A stretch of 19,709 bases of DNA from Anaerolineales bacterium UBA6668 (lineage in GTDB: Bacteria > Chloroflexota > Anaerolineae > Anaerolineales > UBA6668), in assembly GCA_002455215.1 (NCBI GenBank), contig DKKK01000201.1, positions 72,262 through 91,970 of the forward strand. The letters run 5' to 3'. The notes under the pieces were generated by a model. It did no database searches. It was not told the DNA's origin and saw only the letters and a list, made by a program, of their open reading frames with translations. How positions within the stretch are numbered: position 1 is the first letter of the stretch; every line of letters begins with the position of its first letter. Below, piece after piece: positions 5,947 to 17,135 of this stretch. The position numbers and the translations under genes were made by a program.

Positions 5947-5970
5947 GGGGGCGGGCTACCCTGCCCCTAC
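5943..5970. terminator. Possible bidirectional hairpin between convergent genes
   Basis: GTAGGGG (5943-5949) pairs with CCCCTAC (5964-5970). Inside this, CGGG (5952-5955) can pair with CCTG (5960-5963) including one G-T pair, leaving a two-base bulge and a four-base loop. It contains the stop codons of both convergent genes. There is no T-tract on either side, so it may act only as a transcription block or RNA 3' end stabiliser. Confidence 0.4.
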
Positions 5971-7797
5971 CGCGCTGATATCTCCCACAACCACTGTATT
6001 TTCCAGTTCTGCCAGACGCTCGGTGCGGAACTGCGTGGTGTACAGCCGATAGTAGTGCCCTTGTGCCTTGAGCAATTCTGGGTGCGAACCGATTTCGGCG
6101 ATACGCCCTTTTTCCAGCACCAAAATACGGTCAGCATTGCGGATGGTACTCAAGCGGTGTGCAATCACAAAACTGGTGCGCCCTTTCATCAGCCGTTCCA
6201 TTGCCTTTTGGATGAGCGCTTCGGTCATGGTGTCTACACTGCTGGTGGCTTCGTCCATGATGAGCAAATCCGGTTGGGCAAGGATGGCGCGTGCCAAACT
6301 GATCAGTTGTTTTTGCCCAGTGGAGAGCAATACTCCGCCTTCGCCGACTTCGGTGTCGTAGCCTTTTTCCAATGCGCTGATAAATTCATGCGCTTCTGCC
6401 ATTTGAGCGGCGGCGATAATCTCTTCATTTGTGGCAGTCAGCCTGCCGTAGCGCAAGTTCTCGCGTACAGTGCCAGAAAACAAATGCGGCGTTTGCAACA
6501 CTACGCCCAGCCGTGAGTGAATGCTATCGAGTGTGTATTGGGTGTAATCTGTGCCGCCAATGCGAATTTTCCCAGCCGTGGGTTCGTAGAAACGACACAG
6601 CAAGTTGACAATGGTGCTTTTGCCCGCTCCCGTTGCGCCAACCAATGCAATGGTTTCGCCCGGTCTAACGGTTAAATTGAAGTGATGAAGCACTGTTTGC
6701 GCGTCTTTGTAGCCAAAAGAAACGTCATCAAAGACAATCTCACCGCGCAAATTAGGCGCGGGTTGCGCTTGGGGTTGGTCGAAGATTTCGGGTTCGGTAT
6801 CTACCAAGCTAAAAATTCGCTCGGCACTGGCAATTGCCCGTTGCATTTCGGCATATACGCGTGCCAACTCTTGGATGGGCCACAGCATGAAGATGACGTA
6901 GCTGACAAATGCCTGAATCCCACCAATGGACAGCCCAAATGCTGTCAAGGTGTTGGCTCCGGCATACCACACAATTACCCCCACCGCGAGCGCACTAATC
7001 ATTTGCACGATGGGCAAGAACAACGCACTCAGCCAAGCGGCGCGGAAGGCGGCGCGGTACATTTCACTGGTCAGGTCTTGAAACTCGTTCAAGTTTTTGT
7101 CTTCGCGTACCAGTGCCTTTACCACGCGCACGCCGGTAATGTTTTCGTTGTAGGCACTGGTAATTTGGCTGTTTACTTTGCGTACTTGACGGTATTCCTT
7201 TAGGATGAGTACTTGAAAGCGACTAGCAACAATCACCAAAATGGGCACGATGAGTAGCACCAACAATGCCAAGCGCCATTGTAGGATGAACATGAAAATC
7301 AGGGTGGAAGTGATGTTCACCACTGTCCAAGTAATGTCCAAAAAGCCCCAACTCACCAAATCGCTCACACGGTCGGCATCGGAATTGCCCCGCGCCATCA
7401 GCCAACCCACCGGTGTTCGGTCAAAATAGCTGAAAGAGAGTGTTTGCAGGCGATTAAACATTTGTTTGCGCAAGTCATATTTAATCCGTTGCCCCAAAAA
7501 GCCGGCAAGCCAGATGAAAATAAACACAGCGAGCGCTTGGAACAGCATAATCACCCCGTATTGCAGGACAATAGACCACAGCACCTGCATATTGCCAGCC
7601 AGAATGCCTTCATCTACAATGCGGCTACCCAGATAGGTGAAATACGCATCCAGCGCCGAAACCGCTGAAACTGCGCCCAAAAAACCGAGTGTCCACAGGA
7701 GATAGGGACGGGTCAGCCCAATGATACGGAGCAAAAGCGCTCTATCTACTTTGGCAGAGTATGTTTCGTCTTCTAATTCGTAATCTACTTCGCTCAT
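5956..7797 (-). CDS. ABC exporter half-transporter, catalytic-site subunit of a heterodimer
   Basis: A 613-residue type-IV (MsbA/LmrA-like) ABC exporter with six membrane helices in residues 30-320 and a nucleotide-binding domain from about 352. The A-loop tyrosine is in FGYKD, Walker A GATGAGKS is at 387-394, the Q-loop is VVLQTPHLF, the signature is LSTGQ (491-495; usual form LSGGQ), Walker B LLIMDE at 511-516 keeps the catalytic E516, and the H-loop is H547. It lies 40 bases downstream of the second half-transporter on the same strand, and the pair most likely forms one heterodimer. Its intact Walker B pairs with the partner's normal LSGGQ to give the working ATP site, while its altered signature pairs with the partner's altered Walker B. 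A role in multidrug or lipid export is likely but the substrate cannot be read from sequence. No clear Shine-Dalgarno site precedes the ATG. Confidence 0.9.
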   Translation of the reverse strand: MSEVDYELEDETYSAKVDRALLLRIIGLTRPYLLWTLGFLGAVSAVSALDAYFTYLGSRIVDEGILAGNMQVLWSIVLQYGVIMLFQALAVFIFIWLAGFLGQRIKYDLRKQMFNRLQTLSFSYFDRTPVGWLMARGNSDADRVSDLVSWGFLDITWTVVNITSTLIFMFILQWRLALLVLLIVPILVIVASRFQVLILKEYRQVRKVNSQITSAYNENITGVRVVKALVREDKNLNEFQDLTSEMYRAAFRAAWLSALFLPIVQMISALAVGVIVWYAGANTLTAFGLSIGGIQAFVSYVIFMLWPIQELARVYAEMQRAIASAERIFSLVDTEPEIFDQPQAQPAPNLRGEIVFDDVSFGYKDAQTVLHHFNLTVRPGETIALVGATGAGKSTIVNLLCRFYEPTAGKIRIGGTDYTQYTLDSIHSRLGVVLQTPHLFSGTVRENLRYGRLTATNEEIIAAAQMAEAHEFISALEKGYDTEVGEGGVLLSTGQKQLISLARAILAQPDLLIMDEATSSVDTMTEALIQKAMERLMKGRTSFVIAHRLSTIRNADRILVLEKGRIAEIGSHPELLKAQGHYYRLYTTQFRTERLAELENTVVVGDISAVGAG

Positions 7798-7837: not shown

Positions 7838-9631
7838 CTAATTGGCTAATTCTTGTTCGAGTTCGGCTTCCACCTGTGCTTGCACTTCGTAAATGCGGCG
7901 GTATAAGCCGGGCTGTGCCAACAATTGCTGGTGCTTGCCCAATTGCACGATTTGACCTTTGTCCAGCACCACAATTTGGTCTGCCAGCATCACGCTTTGA
8001 ATACGATGGGCAATGATGAAGGTGGTGCGATTGTGCATGATGGTTTTGAGTGCGGCGCGAATTTCTTCTTCCGTCTCACTATCCACTGCACTCGTGGTAT
8101 CGTCTAAAATCAGGATGTGCGGGTTCTTGAGTAAGATGCGGGCAAGCGCTACCCGTTGCTTTTGCCCACCGGACAGCGTCACACCGCGCTCTCCCACCAC
8201 TGTGTAATATTGGTCGGGGAAGGAGAGAATCACATCATGTACGGCGGCGGCGCGGGCGGCGGCGTAAATTTCTTCGTCAGTGGCGGGGCGACCCAAGCCA
8301 TAGGTAATGTTCTCGCGGATGGTGCGGCTGAACAAAAACGGCTCTTGTTGCACAATGCCAATCTGGCGGCGTAAGTAATCGCGCGGATAATCACGCAACT
8401 CTACCCCATCCAGTTGGATACTGCCACTGTTGTAATCGTAGAAGCGTAAGAGCAAATTGACTAGCGAGCTTTTGCCTGCGCCTGTGGGTCCAATCAAGCC
8501 GATGATTTGCCCGCTATGGACGTTCAAGTCAATAGCGTGTAAGACTCCTGCTTTTTCCCCTTCGTATTGGAAGTTGACCTGCTGGAAGCGTACATCTCCG
8601 CGCAAATCGTCCTGTGGCTGATACTTGCCATCATCCAGCGGTTCACGTGTTTGGCTCAATCTTTCCTTAATGCGCCCGTAACTCACCCGCGCTTCGGACA
8701 TGTCAATCAGCAAGCGCCCCAAATTGCGAATCGGGTACAGTAACCAAATCATCAGCCAAGCATAGGCAAGGTAAGTACCGATGGTCAGTTCACCGCGGAT
8801 TACCATACCACCCGCAACCACATAGCCAGTAAGTTGTTGAATGCCAATCATCACATCGGTGATGGGCCAGTACAGCGCGTGAGAAATCAACAACCGCTTA
8901 CCCTGTTCATAGTGCGCATGATTCTTTTCTTCGAATTTGGCGATTTCATATTCCGCACGGTTGAATGCTTTCACCACCCGCACACCGGTCAGGTTTTCTT
9001 GCAAAGCGGTACTTACCTTGCCTTCCAGGCTTTGATACTTTTCATAGCGTTTGCCAATTTCGCGGAAGAAGAGTAGAGAAATGCCGAACACGACTGGAAT
9101 CACAACCACCGAAATTAAGCCCAAGCGCACATTGAGCGAGAGCACCACTGCCCAGATGATAATGAATAACAATACCACCCGCCCGGCTTGAATGGCTTGC
9201 TGGGCAAAAAAGCGCCGAACGGCATCCACATCGGAAGTTACGCGTTGAATCAACTCGCCGGTTTGGGTTTTATCGTGGTAGGTAAAACTCAGATGTTGTA
9301 AGTGGTCATACAAAAAGTCGCGCAGACGCTGGGCAATGCCTTCGCTGGCAAAACCAGCAATGCGCCCGCTCAGATAAGTGGCAAAGCCTTCGAGTGCGGC
9401 AAGCCCAATAAAGCCCAGCGCGATCCACAGCACTTGCCAGCCAAGTTCGGGATGCCCAATCACTTTATCTACAAAATGCTGGAGCAATATGAAGGTAAGA
9501 ATTTTGAAGCCGGCAGAAAAGCCTTGCATCAAATTGGCAACCAAATATTGCCAGCGATAACCACGCATCATTAGCCATAAGCCTTTGATACGGTTTTCAG
9601 TCACAAGTTTTGAATAGTCAATGGATGTCAT
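7838..9631 (-). CDS. ABC exporter half-transporter, degenerate-site subunit of a heterodimer
   Basis: A 597-residue type-IV ABC exporter. I chose the ATG at 9631 (MTSIDYSKL); the frame could extend to 9676, but that stretch falls inside the terminator hairpin and encodes an unlikely N-terminus. Six membrane helices fill residues 25-305. The nucleotide-binding domain has Walker A GPTGAGKS (381-388), a normal LSGGQ signature (486-490), Walker B ILILDD (506-511) in which Asp replaces the catalytic Glu (codon 8099-8101), and H-loop H542. An Asp here marks the non-catalytic ATP site of heterodimeric exporters such as TM287/288 and BmrCD. It is first in a two-gene operon with the 613-residue partner. 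Upstream lie a promoter, a leader ORF and a terminator hairpin ending 20 bases before the ATG, suggesting attenuation control. The C-terminus is rich in Glu and Gln. Confidence 0.9.
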   Translation of the reverse strand: MTSIDYSKLVTENRIKGLWLMMRGYRWQYLVANLMQGFSAGFKILTFILLQHFVDKVIGHPELGWQVLWIALGFIGLAALEGFATYLSGRIAGFASEGIAQRLRDFLYDHLQHLSFTYHDKTQTGELIQRVTSDVDAVRRFFAQQAIQAGRVVLLFIIIWAVVLSLNVRLGLISVVVIPVVFGISLLFFREIGKRYEKYQSLEGKVSTALQENLTGVRVVKAFNRAEYEIAKFEEKNHAHYEQGKRLLISHALYWPITDVMIGIQQLTGYVVAGGMVIRGELTIGTYLAYAWLMIWLLYPIRNLGRLLIDMSEARVSYGRIKERLSQTREPLDDGKYQPQDDLRGDVRFQQVNFQYEGEKAGVLHAIDLNVHSGQIIGLIGPTGAGKSSLVNLLLRFYDYNSGSIQLDGVELRDYPRDYLRRQIGIVQQEPFLFSRTIRENITYGLGRPATDEEIYAAARAAAVHDVILSFPDQYYTVVGERGVTLSGGQKQRVALARILLKNPHILILDDTTSAVDSETEEEIRAALKTIMHNRTTFIIAHRIQSVMLADQIVVLDKGQIVQLGKHQQLLAQPGLYRRIYEVQAQVEAELEQELAN

Positions 9632-9651: not shown

Positions 9652-9685
9652 AAACCGCAAGTGGGGGGAGTACCACTTGCGGTTT
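9652..9685 (-). terminator. Intrinsic terminator, probable attenuator of the ABC exporter operon
   Basis: On the minus strand AAACCGCAAGTGG (9685-9673) pairs perfectly over 13 bp with CCACTTGCGGTTT (9664-9652), with an eight-base loop. The 3' arm runs straight into TTATTTTAATT, so five T residues in a row follow GCGG. It stands between the leader ORF and the exporter ATG, so it should stop leader transcripts unless disrupted. It could also serve as the 3' end of the helicase transcript. Confidence 0.8.
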
Positions 9686-9697
9686 GGTTTACGCAAG
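9676..9697 (-). promoter_or_regulatory. Candidate antiterminator pairing
   Basis: On the minus strand CTTGCG (9697-9692) repeats the core of the terminator's 3' arm and can pair with CGCAAG (9681-9676) in its 5' arm across a ten-base loop. The two pairings exclude each other. The antiterminator is much shorter (6 against 13 bp), so it would need help, for example from a ribosome stalled on the leader ORF; this part is inference. Confidence 0.4.
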
Positions 9698-9720
9698 AAA
9701 ACGGCTGTGCGGGGGAACTG

Positions 9721-9792
9721 TTATCTGTCAGTAGGCGCACCACTCCCAAGGAAAGTGTGTGTAGCTTTGGGGATCATAAGGGACACTATCAT
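9721..9792 (-). CDS. Leader peptide ORF, 23 codons, upstream of ABC exporter
   Basis: A short ORF that starts MIVSLMIPKA and ends SGAPTDR before TAA at 9723-9721. Its ATG (9792-9790) is preceded by AAAGGAG (9807-9801) with eight bases between, a better ribosome-binding site than that of either exporter gene. It lies after a candidate promoter and before an intrinsic terminator. The peptide has no signal sequence, no membrane helix and no cluster of one amino acid that would suggest sensing of a tRNA. Its likely role is as a cis-acting translated leader in which ribosome stalling, for example by a ribosome-targeting drug, changes RNA folding. I do not recognise a known arrest peptide. It might be a chance ORF, but the spacing and context argue against that. 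Confidence 0.6.
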   Translation of the reverse strand: MIVSLMIPKATHTFLGSGAPTDR

Positions 9793-9815
9793 TGGGTTGG
9801 CTCCTTTAAAAATAA

Positions 9816-9835
9816 GATAACGGCGAAAGGTTATC
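9816..9835. promoter_or_regulatory. Palindrome GATAAC-N8-GTTATC, candidate operator
   Basis: A perfect 6-bp inverted repeat with eight bases between the arms (9816-9821 and 9830-9835). It covers the candidate -10 box and start-site area of the exporter leader promoter, where a repressor would act. Alternatively it folds as a small hairpin at the 5' end of the leader RNA. Confidence 0.4.
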
Positions 9836-9856
9836 ATGGTAAGGAAAAACTGTCAA
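9828..9856 (-). promoter_or_regulatory. Candidate promoter for leader ORF and ABC exporter operon
   Basis: A perfect -35 TTGACA (9856-9851) is followed after 17 bases by TAACCT (9833-9828), which keeps the first, second and last bases of TATAAT. It begins eight bases after the helicase stop codon. The predicted start is near 9821, about 30 bases before the leader ATG. The -10 box is weak. Confidence 0.5.
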
Positions 9857-9864
9857 GTAAATTC

Positions 9865-11700
9865 CTACCTTCCTTTTTTTTCTTTCTTGGATTTGCGCAA
9901 AACTGCCGGATGGGGCGATTTACCGCTGGGGCGGGCGGCGGCTTTAGCGGGGCGACCACCCCCCTTACTAGTTCGGAATTCTGCTTTGCCGCTATGGGGG
10001 GCAGACTTGCCAGAACGTAAAGCGGCAGATGCCCCACGCCCGCCCAACTCATCGGCTTGGGCAAGGCGTAAAGAAACCGCTTTGCCGCGTACACTACTAC
10101 GGCTAAGGCGTGACAAAACGACTGTCACTGCCGCCGATGGCACGCCCACCAATGTGTAATCATCCGCAATGTGGATCGGTCCGATAAACTTGCCGGGCAA
10201 GCCGCTCTCATTGGCAATCGCGCCGACAATATCGCCGGGGCGTATGCCCGCCCGCCTGCCAATATCCACATACAAGAATGTGGTGTCGCCAAAGCGTTCT
10301 AGCGCATTCTCGTCAAATTCTGCGGGAGGCAGTGGCTTGCCATACGGGGTGGGCGCTGGCAATTCTTCTTCATCCACTACCCGCTCCAGTGGCTTGGAGC
10401 CACGCGCCAACCAAGCGGCGGCGGCGGCAAGCGAAAGCGCATCTTGCTCACTCTCTGCCATCAATTCTTCCAGCAGTTCCACATATAAGGACAGGTCTTC
10501 CTTCTCTAGGGTAGAGAGAATACGCTCTTTGAAGATGGCACGGCGGCGGGCGGCAACATCCGCTAGGGTGGGCAGTTTGGCTGGGGCGAGTTTTTTGCCG
10601 GTGTAATGCTCGATTTCACGCATCATGCGCATTTCGCGCGGGGTAACAAACAAGATTGCCTTGCCTGCCCTGCCAGCACGTGCGGTGCGTCCGATACGGT
10701 GTACATACGACTCCGGGTCATTCGGGATATCGTAGTTAATAACCCCGCTGATGTGTTCTACGTCCAAGCCGCGTGCCGCCACATCGGTCGCCACCAGAAT
10801 TTCGATTTGCCCATCCTTCATGCGGCGAATCACACTCTCCCGCTGTTGCTGGTTCATATCACCATGCAAGGCATCCACCGCATAACCCCGCGCATCCAAA
10901 CGCTCCACCAGTTCTGCCGCACCGACTTTGGTTCGCACAAAGATGAGGGTGGCGGAATTTTCACTAGACATGGTTTCTAGTACATGGGTCAGCGTGTCTA
11001 GCTTGTTCTTGTCCGAGATTTGCATAAACACTTGCTCTACCGTGGGGACCGTGAGTGTTTTGTGCTTGATTTCGACAAAGGCAGGGTTCTTTAGATAACG
11101 TTCAGCAATGCGGCGAATCTCACGCGGCATTGTGGCGGAGAAAAGCGCAATCTGCTGTTCGCCTTGCGCTTGCTCCAAAATCCACTCCACATCTTCTTGG
11201 AAGCCCATGCGAAGCATTTCGTCCGCTTCGTCTAGGGCTACCATGCGGAGCGCATCAAATTTAAGCGTGCCACGGCGCAGGTGGTCCATCACCCGCCCTG
11301 GCGTTCCTACCACTACGTGCAAGCCCCCTTGCAGGCGGTTGATTTGCTTGCCCATTGAATCGCCCCCATAAATAGGGGCAACTCGCACCTTGCCAAGAAA
11401 TTTGGCGTAGCTGTGAATGGCTTCCGCCACTTGGATGGCGAGTTCACGGGTAGGTGTGAGCACCAACGCCTGCACGGCAAATTGCTCTAGGTTAAGCTGG
11501 TGCAAAATAGGTAGGGCAAAGGCGGCAGTTTTTCCAGTACCGGTCTGGGCTTGCCCTAACACATCGCGTCCTTCCAATAGGTAGGGGATGGTTTGTTGCT
11601 GAATCGGGGTGGGCGTTTCGTAGCCCAAGGCAGTAATTGCTTCCACCAAGGCGGGGTTAAGCCCAAGTGTGGCAAAGGTAGGAGTAGGTTCAGGTTGCAT
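9865..11700 (-). CDS. deaD: DEAD-box RNA helicase, DeaD/CsdA type
   Basis: An ATP-dependent RNA helicase that unwinds short duplexes in ribosome assembly, mRNA decay and cold adaptation. All motifs are intact in the 611-residue product: Q motif F9 to Q34, motif I AQTGTGKT (51-58), PTRELA (83-88), TPGR (133-136), DEAD (157-160), SAT (188-190), VATDVAARGLDV (303-314) and HRIGRTARAGR (334-344). Residues 473-548, with IRPGDIVGAIANESGLPG and IGPIHIADDYTLVGVP, form the DbpA-type RNA-binding domain of CsdA/DeaD. The tail from 549 is rich in Gly, Ser, Lys and Arg and likely disordered and RNA binding. A perfect TATAAT lies nine bases before the ATG and there is no Shine-Dalgarno site, so the mRNA may be leaderless. 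Downstream on the same strand are the exporter leader and its terminator. Confidence 0.94.
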   Translation of the reverse strand: MQPEPTPTFATLGLNPALVEAITALGYETPTPIQQQTIPYLLEGRDVLGQAQTGTGKTAAFALPILHQLNLEQFAVQALVLTPTRELAIQVAEAIHSYAKFLGKVRVAPIYGGDSMGKQINRLQGGLHVVVGTPGRVMDHLRRGTLKFDALRMVALDEADEMLRMGFQEDVEWILEQAQGEQQIALFSATMPREIRRIAERYLKNPAFVEIKHKTLTVPTVEQVFMQISDKNKLDTLTHVLETMSSENSATLIFVRTKVGAAELVERLDARGYAVDALHGDMNQQQRESVIRRMKDGQIEILVATDVAARGLDVEHISGVINYDIPNDPESYVHRIGRTARAGRAGKAILFVTPREMRMMREIEHYTGKKLAPAKLPTLADVAARRRAIFKERILSTLEKEDLSLYVELLEELMAESEQDALSLAAAAAWLARGSKPLERVVDEEELPAPTPYGKPLPPAEFDENALERFGDTTFLYVDIGRRAGIRPGDIVGAIANESGLPGKFIGPIHIADDYTLVGVPSAAVTVVLSRLSRSSVRGKAVSLRLAQADELGGRGASAALRSGKSAPHSGKAEFRTSKGGGRPAKAAARPSGKSPHPAVLRKSKKEKKGR

Positions 11701-15161: not shown

Positions 15162-17135
15162 TCAGTCGTTACGCACCTGTGGTTCGCTCGGTTCGGTTTG
15201 TTGGCGAAACTGCGTGTGATACAGCTCGGCATATAGCCCGTTGTTTGCCAACAACTCGCCGTGTGTGCCTTGCTCCACCAAGCGCCCTTGCTCCATCACC
15301 AAAATTTTATCTGCCGCAAGAATGGTGCTTAGGCGGTGGGCAATGACAATGCTGGTGCGTCCGGCAAATAGCGGTTGTAGCGCCGCTTGAATGAGCGCTT
15401 CCGACTTGCTATCCAACGATGCGGTTGCTTCGTCCAGTACCAAGATGCGTGGGTCTTTCAGCACCACCCGCGCAATAGCAATGCGCTGTTTTTCGCCCCC
15501 GCTAAAGCGGTAGCCACGCTCTCCGACCACTGTGTCCAAGCCTTCGGGCAAAGATTCGATTAATTCCCAGATATTTGCCACGCGACAAGCCTGCTCAATT
15601 TCGGCTGAAGTAGCGGACGGCTTAGCGTAGCGTAAGTTTTCACGCAGGGTGTCATGGAATAGGTACGTCTCTTGTGTGACCATGCCGATATGCTGTGCCA
15701 GATTTTCCAGTTGGAAATCGCGTAGATCCACCCCGTCGAGTAAGATTTTTCCGCTAGTGGGGTCATACAAGCGTGGTAGTAAATAGGTCAGGGTCGTTTT
15801 GCCTGCGCCGCTGGGTCCAACCAAAGCCACCAATTGCCCCGGCGCTATCTCAAAGGCGATCTCTTGTAGGGCTTGCACGCGCCCGCCGGCTGGCACATAA
15901 TCCGGCAGTTTGCCCGACAGCCCTAACCCGCCCGCATAGCCTTCCCGTCCGCGTTCCTGACTGGCTAATCCCAGCACATTGCCGCCCTTTAGGGCTTGTG
16001 CTACTGAATCGGGCAGAATATCATAGCGAAAACCGACATTGGCAAATTGCACCCGCCCCGCCACTTGCGGCAAGGCAACCGCATTGGGTTTTTCTACAAT
16101 TTCTTGCGGTAAGTCCAACACTTCAAAGACGCGTTCAAAACTCACCAAGCTACTTGCCAAATCTACCCGCGCATTGACTAAACTGGTCACGGGTCCATAC
16201 AATTGTGCCAGGTAACTGGCAAATGCCACGATTAGCCCAATAGTGAATGTGCCTTGCAAAACCAGATGTCCCCCCACCCAAAAGACGAGCGCTGTCCCGA
16301 TTGCAGAGATTAAGCTGAAGGTGACAAAGAACCAGCGCCCCACCACTGCCGAGCGCACGCCAATCTCGGCAACATTTTTGCTGTGTTGGTTAAACTGTTG
16401 GCGCAGTTGAGCTTGCCTGCCGAAGATTTTCATCAACAAAATGGCGCTGACGTTCAGCGTTTCATTCATGTGCGTGCTCATTTGGGCATTGAAGCCCATT
16501 GCTTTGCGGGTGATGTCGCGCAAAATGCCGCTCATCCGCTGGGAAGGCAAGATAAATAAGGGGAATAGCGCGATACTGAGCAATGCTAATCGCCATTCCA
16601 ATGAGAACATGACCACTAATGAAACTACCAACGTGATGCTATCTGTGATTAGGCTGATGAAGGTGCTGGTAACGGCACGCTGTGCCCCAACTACATCGCT
16701 GTTTAGGCGTGCCATGATTTCGCCAGTTTTGGTGTTGGTAAAAAAGCGCAAAGACATGCTTTGTAAGTGGGCATAGAGCGCTTGGCGCAAATCTCGAATA
16801 ATGCCTTCGCCAATGCCGGCGCTGAGTCCGCGTTGCCAAGTGCCAATGAGCCCGTTCAGCACCGGAATCGCCACCATTGCCAGCGCCAGCCAATTAAGTT
16901 GGCTGGCTGAGCGTTGGGGAAGTGCTACGTCAATCAGTTGGCGGGTGATGAGTGGCGGAAGCATGGAAAGCCCGGTACTGAGCAAAATTGTGAACAGCAC
17001 GAATACAATCTGCCAAGTAAACGGACGGGCGTATTGCAAAGCGCGTTTGAGAATTGCAAAATTGATAGGTTCTTTGTTTTCTGGCTCAGTGGCGCTCATT
17101 AGGTGTCGCCAATTGCCTGGGGAAGCGTTAAACAT
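15162..17135 (-). CDS. ABC exporter with extra segment in the nucleotide-binding domain, probably homodimeric
   Basis: A type-IV (MsbA-like) exporter of 657 residues, or 645 if the second ATG at 17099 is used; neither has a Shine-Dalgarno site. The membrane part with six helices spans about 40-320. The nucleotide-binding domain has the A-loop GFRYD (368-372), Walker A GPSGAGKT (440-447), signature FSGGE (544-548), Walker B ILVLDE (564-569) with catalytic E569, and H600. All key residues are present, so it can work as a homodimer, unlike the paired exporter at 5956-9631. About 48 residues (373-420), rich in Gly, lie between the A-loop strand and the QALQEIAFEI strand, where most exporters have a few residues. 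Similar insertions occur in some actinobacterial and Chloroflexota exporters, to my recollection. A 98-residue hypothetical protein follows in the same direction. Substrate unknown. Confidence 0.9.
   Translation of the reverse strand: MFNASPGNWRHLMSATEPENKEPINFAILKRALQYARPFTWQIVFVLFTILLSTGLSMLPPLITRQLIDVALPQRSASQLNWLALAMVAIPVLNGLIGTWQRGLSAGIGEGIIRDLRQALYAHLQSMSLRFFTNTKTGEIMARLNSDVVGAQRAVTSTFISLITDSITLVVSLVVMFSLEWRLALLSIALFPLFILPSQRMSGILRDITRKAMGFNAQMSTHMNETLNVSAILLMKIFGRQAQLRQQFNQHSKNVAEIGVRSAVVGRWFFVTFSLISAIGTALVFWVGGHLVLQGTFTIGLIVAFASYLAQLYGPVTSLVNARVDLASSLVSFERVFEVLDLPQEIVEKPNAVALPQVAGRVQFANVGFRYDILPDSVAQALKGGNVLGLASQERGREGYAGGLGLSGKLPDYVPAGGRVQALQEIAFEIAPGQLVALVGPSGAGKTTLTYLLPRLYDPTSGKILLDGVDLRDFQLENLAQHIGMVTQETYLFHDTLRENLRYAKPSATSAEIEQACRVANIWELIESLPEGLDTVVGERGYRFSGGEKQRIAIARVVLKDPRILVLDEATASLDSKSEALIQAALQPLFAGRTSIVIAHRLSTILAADKILVMEQGRLVEQGTHGELLANNGLYAELYHTQFRQQTEPSEPQVRND

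Follow-up and report, generated by a model that had tools for sequence, protein, structure and literature searches.

Our results indicate that the minus-strand region at 9652-9856 of the window (the whole 19,709-nucleotide stretch of Anaerolineales bacterium UBA6668 DNA that was analyzed) is likely a ribosome-mediated transcription attenuator, and one of a family of such elements in many Anaerolineae. This reading of the sequence is favored by a leader ORF that stays open in the relatives, by mutually exclusive helices that covary, by a common promoter form, and by a switch that can be seen in silico. The features of the region and of its neighbors, in the order of transcription, are as follows.

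9865-11700, minus strand: DEAD-box helicase-like ORF, named by reading its sequence, ending just before the leader promoter.
9828..9856, minus strand: promoter-like site seen in the sequence, with -35 TTGACA at 9856-9851, 17 nt, and -10 TAACCT at 9833-9828.
9801..9807, minus strand: SD of the leader ORF, AAAGGAG, seen in the sequence.
9792..9800, minus strand: strand A, CCAACCCAA, lying between SD and start codon and pairing with B as anti-antiterminator, around the ORF; from folding and family covariation.
9721..9792, minus strand: leader ORF of 23 codons, MIVSLMIPKATHTFLGSGAPTDR and stop, seen in the sequence; the frame is open in relatives.
9734..9749, minus strand: strand B, TTGGGAGTGGTGCGCC, within the ORF near its end; its partner is A or C.
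9717..9732, minus strand: hairpin P2 (ACTG/CAGT) with the leader stop TAA in its loop, from the sequence and one fold.
9692..9697, minus strand: CTTGCG copy of the terminator 3' arm, seen in the sequence and not conserved.
9652..9685, minus strand: intrinsic terminator of 13 perfect bp with an 8-nt loop, followed by T-rich TTATTTTAAT, from a terminator scan and folding.
9666..9674, minus strand: strand C, GGTACTCCC, the terminator loop with the upper part of its 5' arm; antiterminator pairing with GGGAGT of B.
7838..9631, minus strand: exporter half 1, 597 aa, with an LSGGQ signature and Walker B followed by D (LDD).
5956..7797, minus strand: exporter half 2, 613 aa, with the altered signature LSTGQ and the normal Walker B end MDE.

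Much of this anatomy had been described in the first-pass annotation, and the TTGACA directly past the helicase ORF, the 23-codon ORF with its AAAGGAG, and the perfect 13-bp stem with a T-rich tail 20 nt ahead of the exporter ATG at 9631 are all present in the sequence. That ATG has no evident SD. A plain sigma-70 scan listed no promoter at the leader because TAACCT fits TATAAT at only 3 of 6 positions; it fits the family -10 form TAAACT at 5 of 6, and the whole site agrees with TTGACA/TAAACT at 11 of 12. The scan listed 2 terminators in the window against 1.5 expected, so that a terminator as such is unremarkable there. The 200-nt leader gave a folding z of -3.0. P2 is absent from this 200-nt leader fold and appears in another window fold, where GTGCG of B pairs instead with CGCAC of the spacer, enclosing P2.

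Taken by themselves, the alternative pairings of the window are within chance. The A:B duplex (-14.8 kcal/mol) is equaled by 256 of 2,000 letter-shuffled A strands and the B:C duplex (-15.6 kcal/mol) by 536 of 2,000 letter-shuffled C strands, and in the register of the covariance model R2 described below, nonstandard pairs make up 3/8 of A:B and 2/4 of P2. It is the relatives that support these pairings.

Downstream of the leader stand two neighboring half-transporter genes whose ATP sites are altered in complementary ways: half 1 carries LDD, which usually marks the degenerate half, and half 2 carries LSTGQ. These asymmetric sites identify the pair as a predicted heterodimer, in the manner of the heterodimeric ABC exporters TmrAB, BmrCD, and TM287/288. 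The best PDB matches of half 1 are P-glycoprotein-like (509 bits), with 6raf_B (340 bits) as its best bacterial half-transporter; those of half 2 are plant and animal ABCB chains (568 bits), with 6raf_A (411 bits) as its best. The bacterial half-transporters best matched by the exporter are 6raf/5mkk (presumably TmrAB), TM_0288, and YheI/YheH. NCBIfam gave nothing above cutoff for half 1, with MsbA as the best model at 429 versus 602 bits. Another ABC exporter gene, the third in the window (15162-17135, minus strand), has by eye an extra stretch, approximately GLASQERGREGYAGGLGLSGKLPDYV, just ahead of its nucleotide-binding core, and R2 found no element before it.

The evidence from the relatives is broad. 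Sixty were drawn, none of the window genus, and the resulting 61 genomes, counting the window's own, hold 33 exporter orthologues at 52-59% identity besides that of the window; GTDB contigs added 11 exporter loci, 8 of them at 52-59% identity (Longilinea and other Chloroflexota). Many orthologue upstream regions share one order: first the SD, then a strand (GGCGCACTC, for example) and the ATG of a short ORF, which closes with GAGTGCGCC and a nearby stop, and last a terminator. Thirteen such leaders were extracted, including that of the window, and a covariance model, R1, was built from 7 of them, excluding it. R1 found 84 places in at least 57 of 396 genomes of the class, often several per genome, a lower bound because the large searches score 7 candidates per genome. 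R1, the smaller model, missed the window element. The second model, R2, was built without the window from 71 elements of related Anaerolineae and matches the window at 9809-9649 with 29.6 bits (E = 3.1e-4 in the 3.3-Mb genome, the sole match at E <= 1) and with the order SD-A-ORF-B-P2-terminator. R2 has matches in 38 of the 61 genomes and, directly upstream of the exporter, at 14 of 34 orthologues, the window included. The phylum search with R2 gave matches in 35 of 400 genomes, 34 of them within the class; the single outside match is marginal, and its class gave 2 marginal matches among 7 genomes with that one counted. The settings of this 400-genome search were stricter, and with them R2 missed the window element. 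Judged from these matches, the window leader is a diverged member of a putative attenuator family that stands before many gene types. It had been called an independent example; its layout does differ from that of bmrB, but it is not isolated, being one copy of a larger family.

Of the 84 R1 places, 73 were read (30 loci, 40 fetched, and 3 more), and some weak R2 places were left unread. In all, 117 elements were read and 114 were kept. L149 was dropped for a poor B match, a GTG start, and a weak SD; it adjoins an RsgA-type gene. L148 (G026:C125:43313-43456) and L155 (G332:C13:24695-24838) were dropped for their HHHHH leaders; the downstream proteins are HisD- and HisG-like by eye, and these two are apparent histidine attenuators in Anaerolineae picked up by R2. 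The alignment used below, A5, holds 100 of the 117 elements and omits L029, L037, L046, L047, L050, L076, L087, L097, L105, L109, L138, L140, L148, L149, L155, L159, and L160. B was placed by best match to GGAGTGCGCC, which is wrong in a few elements (L027, L049, and others); statistics on B and on frames use the 105 of 114 elements with at least 8/10 letters, and the in-frame-stop and folding tests are unfiltered.

The elements share a promoter form and have no Rfam counterpart at the loci searched. TTGACA-16/18-TAAACT at 8/12 or better precedes 104 of the 114 elements against 10.6 expected from letter shuffles, the -10 form TAAACT used in this scoring being derived from the same data. Rfam 15 gave nothing at gathering score for the window or nine other loci; below threshold were ar14 (25 versus 58.8 bits) and, among eight loci, a T-box (37.9 versus 93) at L068:1-197, away from the element.

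Other leaders also stand before exporters of this kind. In the window's own family, L011, L017, and L018 have a different short leader ORF, e.g., MTMIFDLTAPAAKAGFAIHAC and stop, with one or two terminators, and perhaps these are a diverged form of the element; all three same-family exporters were expected to carry it, but R2 scores are weak at L017 (23.9 bits) and L018 (17.2 bits), and R2 found none at L011. At L002 and L006 the orthologous exporter follows yet another kind of leader, whose terminator uses the inverted repeat ATGCGTGAGG/CCTCACGCAT. L031 and L032 (Longilinea) share a stretch ending ATGA.YCGAGCTCTCAACTAA (MTRALN or MIRALN and stop), possibly a third leader type. In another class, L161 (G460:C52:145475-145586), one of the two marginal matches noted above, has a member-like leader in which GGCGCACCCAT and ATGGGTGCGCC form an A:B helix of 11 bp and the ORF runs through B; its downstream ORF resembles an ABC exporter by eye, and the stretch inspected has no terminator.

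Covariation supports both A:B and B:C as helices of the family, and since they share strand B they would be mutually exclusive. On A5, which was fitted to the A:B helix with B:C outside the model, A:B is paired in 88.0% of cells with 47 double-change cells versus 13.3 in shuffles, and B:C in 80.4% with 32 versus 14.9; none of 500 shuffles equaled either result. Slid controls reached at most 70.9% and 23 double-change cells for A:B and at most 65.8% and 23 for B:C. P2 is paired in 83.4% of cells, with 42 double-change cells versus 11.1. The number of pairs with a double change says less: the 5 of B:C were equaled by 184 of 500 shuffles and the 4 of P2 by 369 of 500. The outer two pairs of B:C are paired in just 52.5% of cells, and one of its inner pairs, 237:350, does not form in 42 of the 97 sequences. 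Because the rows of A5 share descent, the shuffle tests are inflated; the slid controls are lower too. Individual elements show B and C changing together, as in L157 (B GAGTTTGCC, matching C GGGCAAACTC), L158 (B GAGTGTGTC, matching C GGACATGCTC), and L132 (B TATTGCGCC, matching C GGGCGCAA). The median B:C duplex energy within an element is -14.9 kcal/mol; when the partner of B is one of 62 other terminators from these loci, the value is -7.6 (p = 4e-23), and with the 27 GC-rich ones among them it is -9.5 (p = 7e-12). The complementarity of GGGAGT to the loop ACTCCC, pointed out earlier as a further pairing, is confirmed and is the window counterpart of the conserved B:C helix. The CTTGCG at 9697-9692 is indeed a repeat of the terminator 3' arm, but the antiterminator role once assigned to it is rejected, a spacer 6-mer copy of that arm being found in 5 of 114 elements with 3.3 expected.

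The leader ORF looks translated, judging from an SD and from a frame that is open over a variable length. The start was picked by SD spacing alone, blind to what follows, and 6 of 114 elements lack an ATG there. From this start, 1 of 108 elements has an in-frame stop before the end of B, compared with 86 and 62 in the other frames, over start-to-B distances of 37 to 91 nt; L098 has no ORF through B. Among the elements read, leaders have 16 to 36 codons. The stop codon lies 10 or 13 nt past the end of B in 81 of the 105 elements with a well-matched B, so that a terminating ribosome, given its size, would cover B.

Most leaders end in a PSRSAPVDR form, and the window has GSGAPTDR. This raises the possibility that the end of the leader is a drug- or metabolite-dependent arrest peptide that does the sensing through its own sequence. 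Arrest motifs can be short, P[SC]RSAP recurs at the C terminus before unrelated genes, and CCTTCTCG, which encodes the first part of the motif, is conserved outside the A:B and B:C strands. We consider it improbable, though the strongest of the alternatives. B is read in three frames (89, 11, and 5 of the 105 elements), which speaks against a peptide motif as the sensor, and one subgroup (L126, L132, L133, L136, L139, and L141) reads the same RNA in another frame, CCTTGTCGTATTGCGCC, giving ends such as LSYCACCP. The middle of the peptide is highly variable, and the window itself departs from the motif. The leader peptide sequence is thus probably not the point of the switch.

A riboswitch or a protein-bound leader with an incidental ORF would fit a conserved structured RNA with a terminator and a P2 that covaries. 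It would also leave a role for the otherwise unexplained CCTTCTCG (or CCTTGTCG). This stretch lies just 5' of B at A5 columns 167-174 (TTTCC before TTGGGAG in the window) and is 60 to 92% conserved per column where present, in both reading frames, to an extent that neither A:B nor B:C explains. We hold such a leader to be quite unlikely: strong conservation is confined to the SD, A, B, P2, the terminator, and this short stretch, the ORF frame is kept across variable length, and the stop codon is so placed that a ribosome terminating there would presumably cover B.

Two further explanations have very little chance of being right. An amino acid starvation attenuator of the trp/his type would have the same general layout, and R2 did match the two HHHHH leaders, but no residue exceeds 9% of the variable part of the peptides, and the assigned targets are exporters, ABC-F proteins, acetyltransferases, GTPases, and kinases rather than biosynthesis genes. 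An ordinary helicase terminator with a chance ORF and a separate exporter start, e.g., a leaderless one from the AT-rich TATTTTAAT noted by eye in the terminator tail ahead of the ATG, would suit a terminator that begins 180 nt past the helicase ORF and window pairings within chance, but orthologues and many other genes are likewise preceded by the promoter form, an ORF, and a terminator in that order, the stem-to-ATG gap is just 20 nt, and the scan lists no promoter there.

Ribosome-mediated attenuation would proceed as follows in the element. A freely translating ribosome would reach the stop codon and cover B, and the terminator would form (OFF). A ribosome held at or near the start codon, or queued behind one held in the ORF, would cover A; B would then be free as C emerges, and B:C, forming ahead of the terminator 3' arm, would let transcription continue into the exporter genes (ON). 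With no ribosome, A, which is made before C, may pair with B first, favoring OFF; this is the weakest step. The inducer would most likely be anything that slows early translation, e.g., ribosome-targeting antibiotics. The anatomy, the family membership, the open ORF, the covariation of both helices, the recurrent promoter form, and the kinds of downstream genes are observed, and we infer from them how the steps follow one another, that translation inhibitors are sensed, and that the output is drug resistance.

Folding of transcripts cut before the terminator 3' arm agrees with the main contrast in this scheme. This was done for 113 of the 114 elements, with B of the window set by hand. When the start region is masked, the probability of B:C averages 0.70 and exceeds 0.4 in 101 of 113 elements (0.57 in the window); with a ribosome at the stop, it averages 0.03 and exceeds 0.4 in 4 of 113 (0.00 in the window). 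A ribosome at codon 8 leaves the mean at 0.41, unchanged from that of unmasked transcripts given below, with 56 of 113 above 0.4, although in the window the value rises to 0.32. When unrelated terminators are swapped in with the start masked, 164 of 565 exceed 0.4, at a mean GC content of 0.64 in these controls versus 0.74 in the elements' own C. In silico, then, it makes a strong difference whether the ribosome is at the start or at the stop, and for the mechanism to work a ribosome would have to be at the start codon, either stalled or waiting in a queue. With nothing masked, B:C averages 0.43 and A:B 0.33, and since B:C exceeds 0.4 in 61 of 113 elements, equilibrium folding alone gives no ribosome-free OFF state in the family. 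Unlike the family, the window is already OFF in the unmasked equilibrium fold, with B:C at 0.02. Full-length folds with the start masked keep the terminator (0.79 on average and 0.97 in the window), and ON therefore needs cotranscriptional timing.

The genes that follow the 114 elements are of many kinds. They include 35 BmrCD-type exporters, 9 ABC exporters of a second type, 13 DrrA-type ATPases, 5 ABC-F proteins, two groups of GNAT acetyltransferases (17 and 11), 6 RsgA GTPases, 4 RIO kinases, 5 MFS pumps, and 1 Tet-like MFS protein. Exporters are overrepresented because R1 was seeded from exporter-derived loci. Three of the 114 elements run off the contig; 5 next genes were not placed by BLAST, two of which are GNAT by Pfam (L065 and L121), and 12 of the element-gene links are weaker because more than 350 nt separates the element from the start of the named gene. 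Profiles were run on representatives, and BLAST against these placed the other genes. All five ABC-F proteins pass their cutoff of 380 bits, with scores of 435-455, and the RsgA of L068 scores 214 versus 100; below cutoff are the four DrrA-type proteins scanned (243-257 versus 312) and the Tet-like MFS of L084 (345 versus 750). RIO1-like kinases stand directly after the element at L067, L102, L129, and L146. This set of known or likely antibiotic resistance genes and ribosome-related genes may be regarded as a putative resistance regulon.

In the his and trp leaders, the position of the ribosome selects the terminator or the antiterminator, and charged tRNA is sensed through repeated codons. 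The element resembles them in that ribosome position would decide, and the family lacks their run of repeated codons. The closest mechanism found is that of the vmlR leader of Bacillus subtilis, described as a uORF inside an anti-antiterminator hairpin with a mutually exclusive antiterminator and then an intrinsic terminator, where a ribosome stalled on the uORF switches the gene on; three variants of the uORF were tried, of which two matched or exceeded the wild type and one was less effective (PMC9226507). By analogy, the element family would work like the vmlR leader. vmlR has a three-codon uORF, MIN, and serves one ABC-F gene in Bacilli, whereas the elements have 16 to 36 codons and serve many gene types in Chloroflexota; B within the end of the ORF is likewise a feature of the element family, unlike vmlR.

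The bmrB leader of bmrCD in B. subtilis is also translated and has a terminator and an antiterminator before a heterodimeric ABC drug exporter that is induced by chloramphenicol, erythromycin, and lincomycin and not by kanamycin or gentamycin; its terminator lies inside the coding region, and the role of a predicted anti-antiterminator was left unclear (PMC4191407). The window differs from this layout, since its leader stop is at 9721 and its terminator begins at 9685, past the ORF. In Escherichia coli, the toiL uORF of topAI senses at least five classes of ribosome-targeting antibiotics, and tetracycline is reported to stall ribosomes at the start codon (PMC12121999). The toiL uORF acts on translation with Rho-dependent termination, whereas the window leader has an intrinsic terminator. 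Among the matches listed from the leader and attenuation literature, judged by title and opening of the abstract, none describes the element family. No word starting with Chloroflex occurs in the main text of an article about premature terminators (PMC2965389), and another article lists Chloroflexi-1 and pan in that phylum (PMC2864571). The kind of mechanism is known; what is new, to judge from these matches, is that one putative switch is common to an entire set of resistance-like genes in Chloroflexota.

There is a wider possibility, to which we give about even chances: that one attenuator RNA family is the common switch of a translation stress regulon in Chloroflexota, in which RNA pairing would read stalling with no particular peptide, and which would have spread to positions ahead of resistance and ribosome-related genes that are not related to one another. 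Leaders that sense drugs have as a rule been reported gene by gene, mostly in Firmicutes. The relatives that read the same RNA strand in another frame would offer a clean test of whether a leader peptide is required. If the idea is true, the RsgA-type GTPases, the RIO-type kinases, and several of the acetyltransferases would be unrecognized antibiotic tolerance or ribosome rescue factors. A search for the element, via the switch and not via known resistance proteins, offers a direct route to candidate genes for resistance in a phylum of which few members have been cultured.
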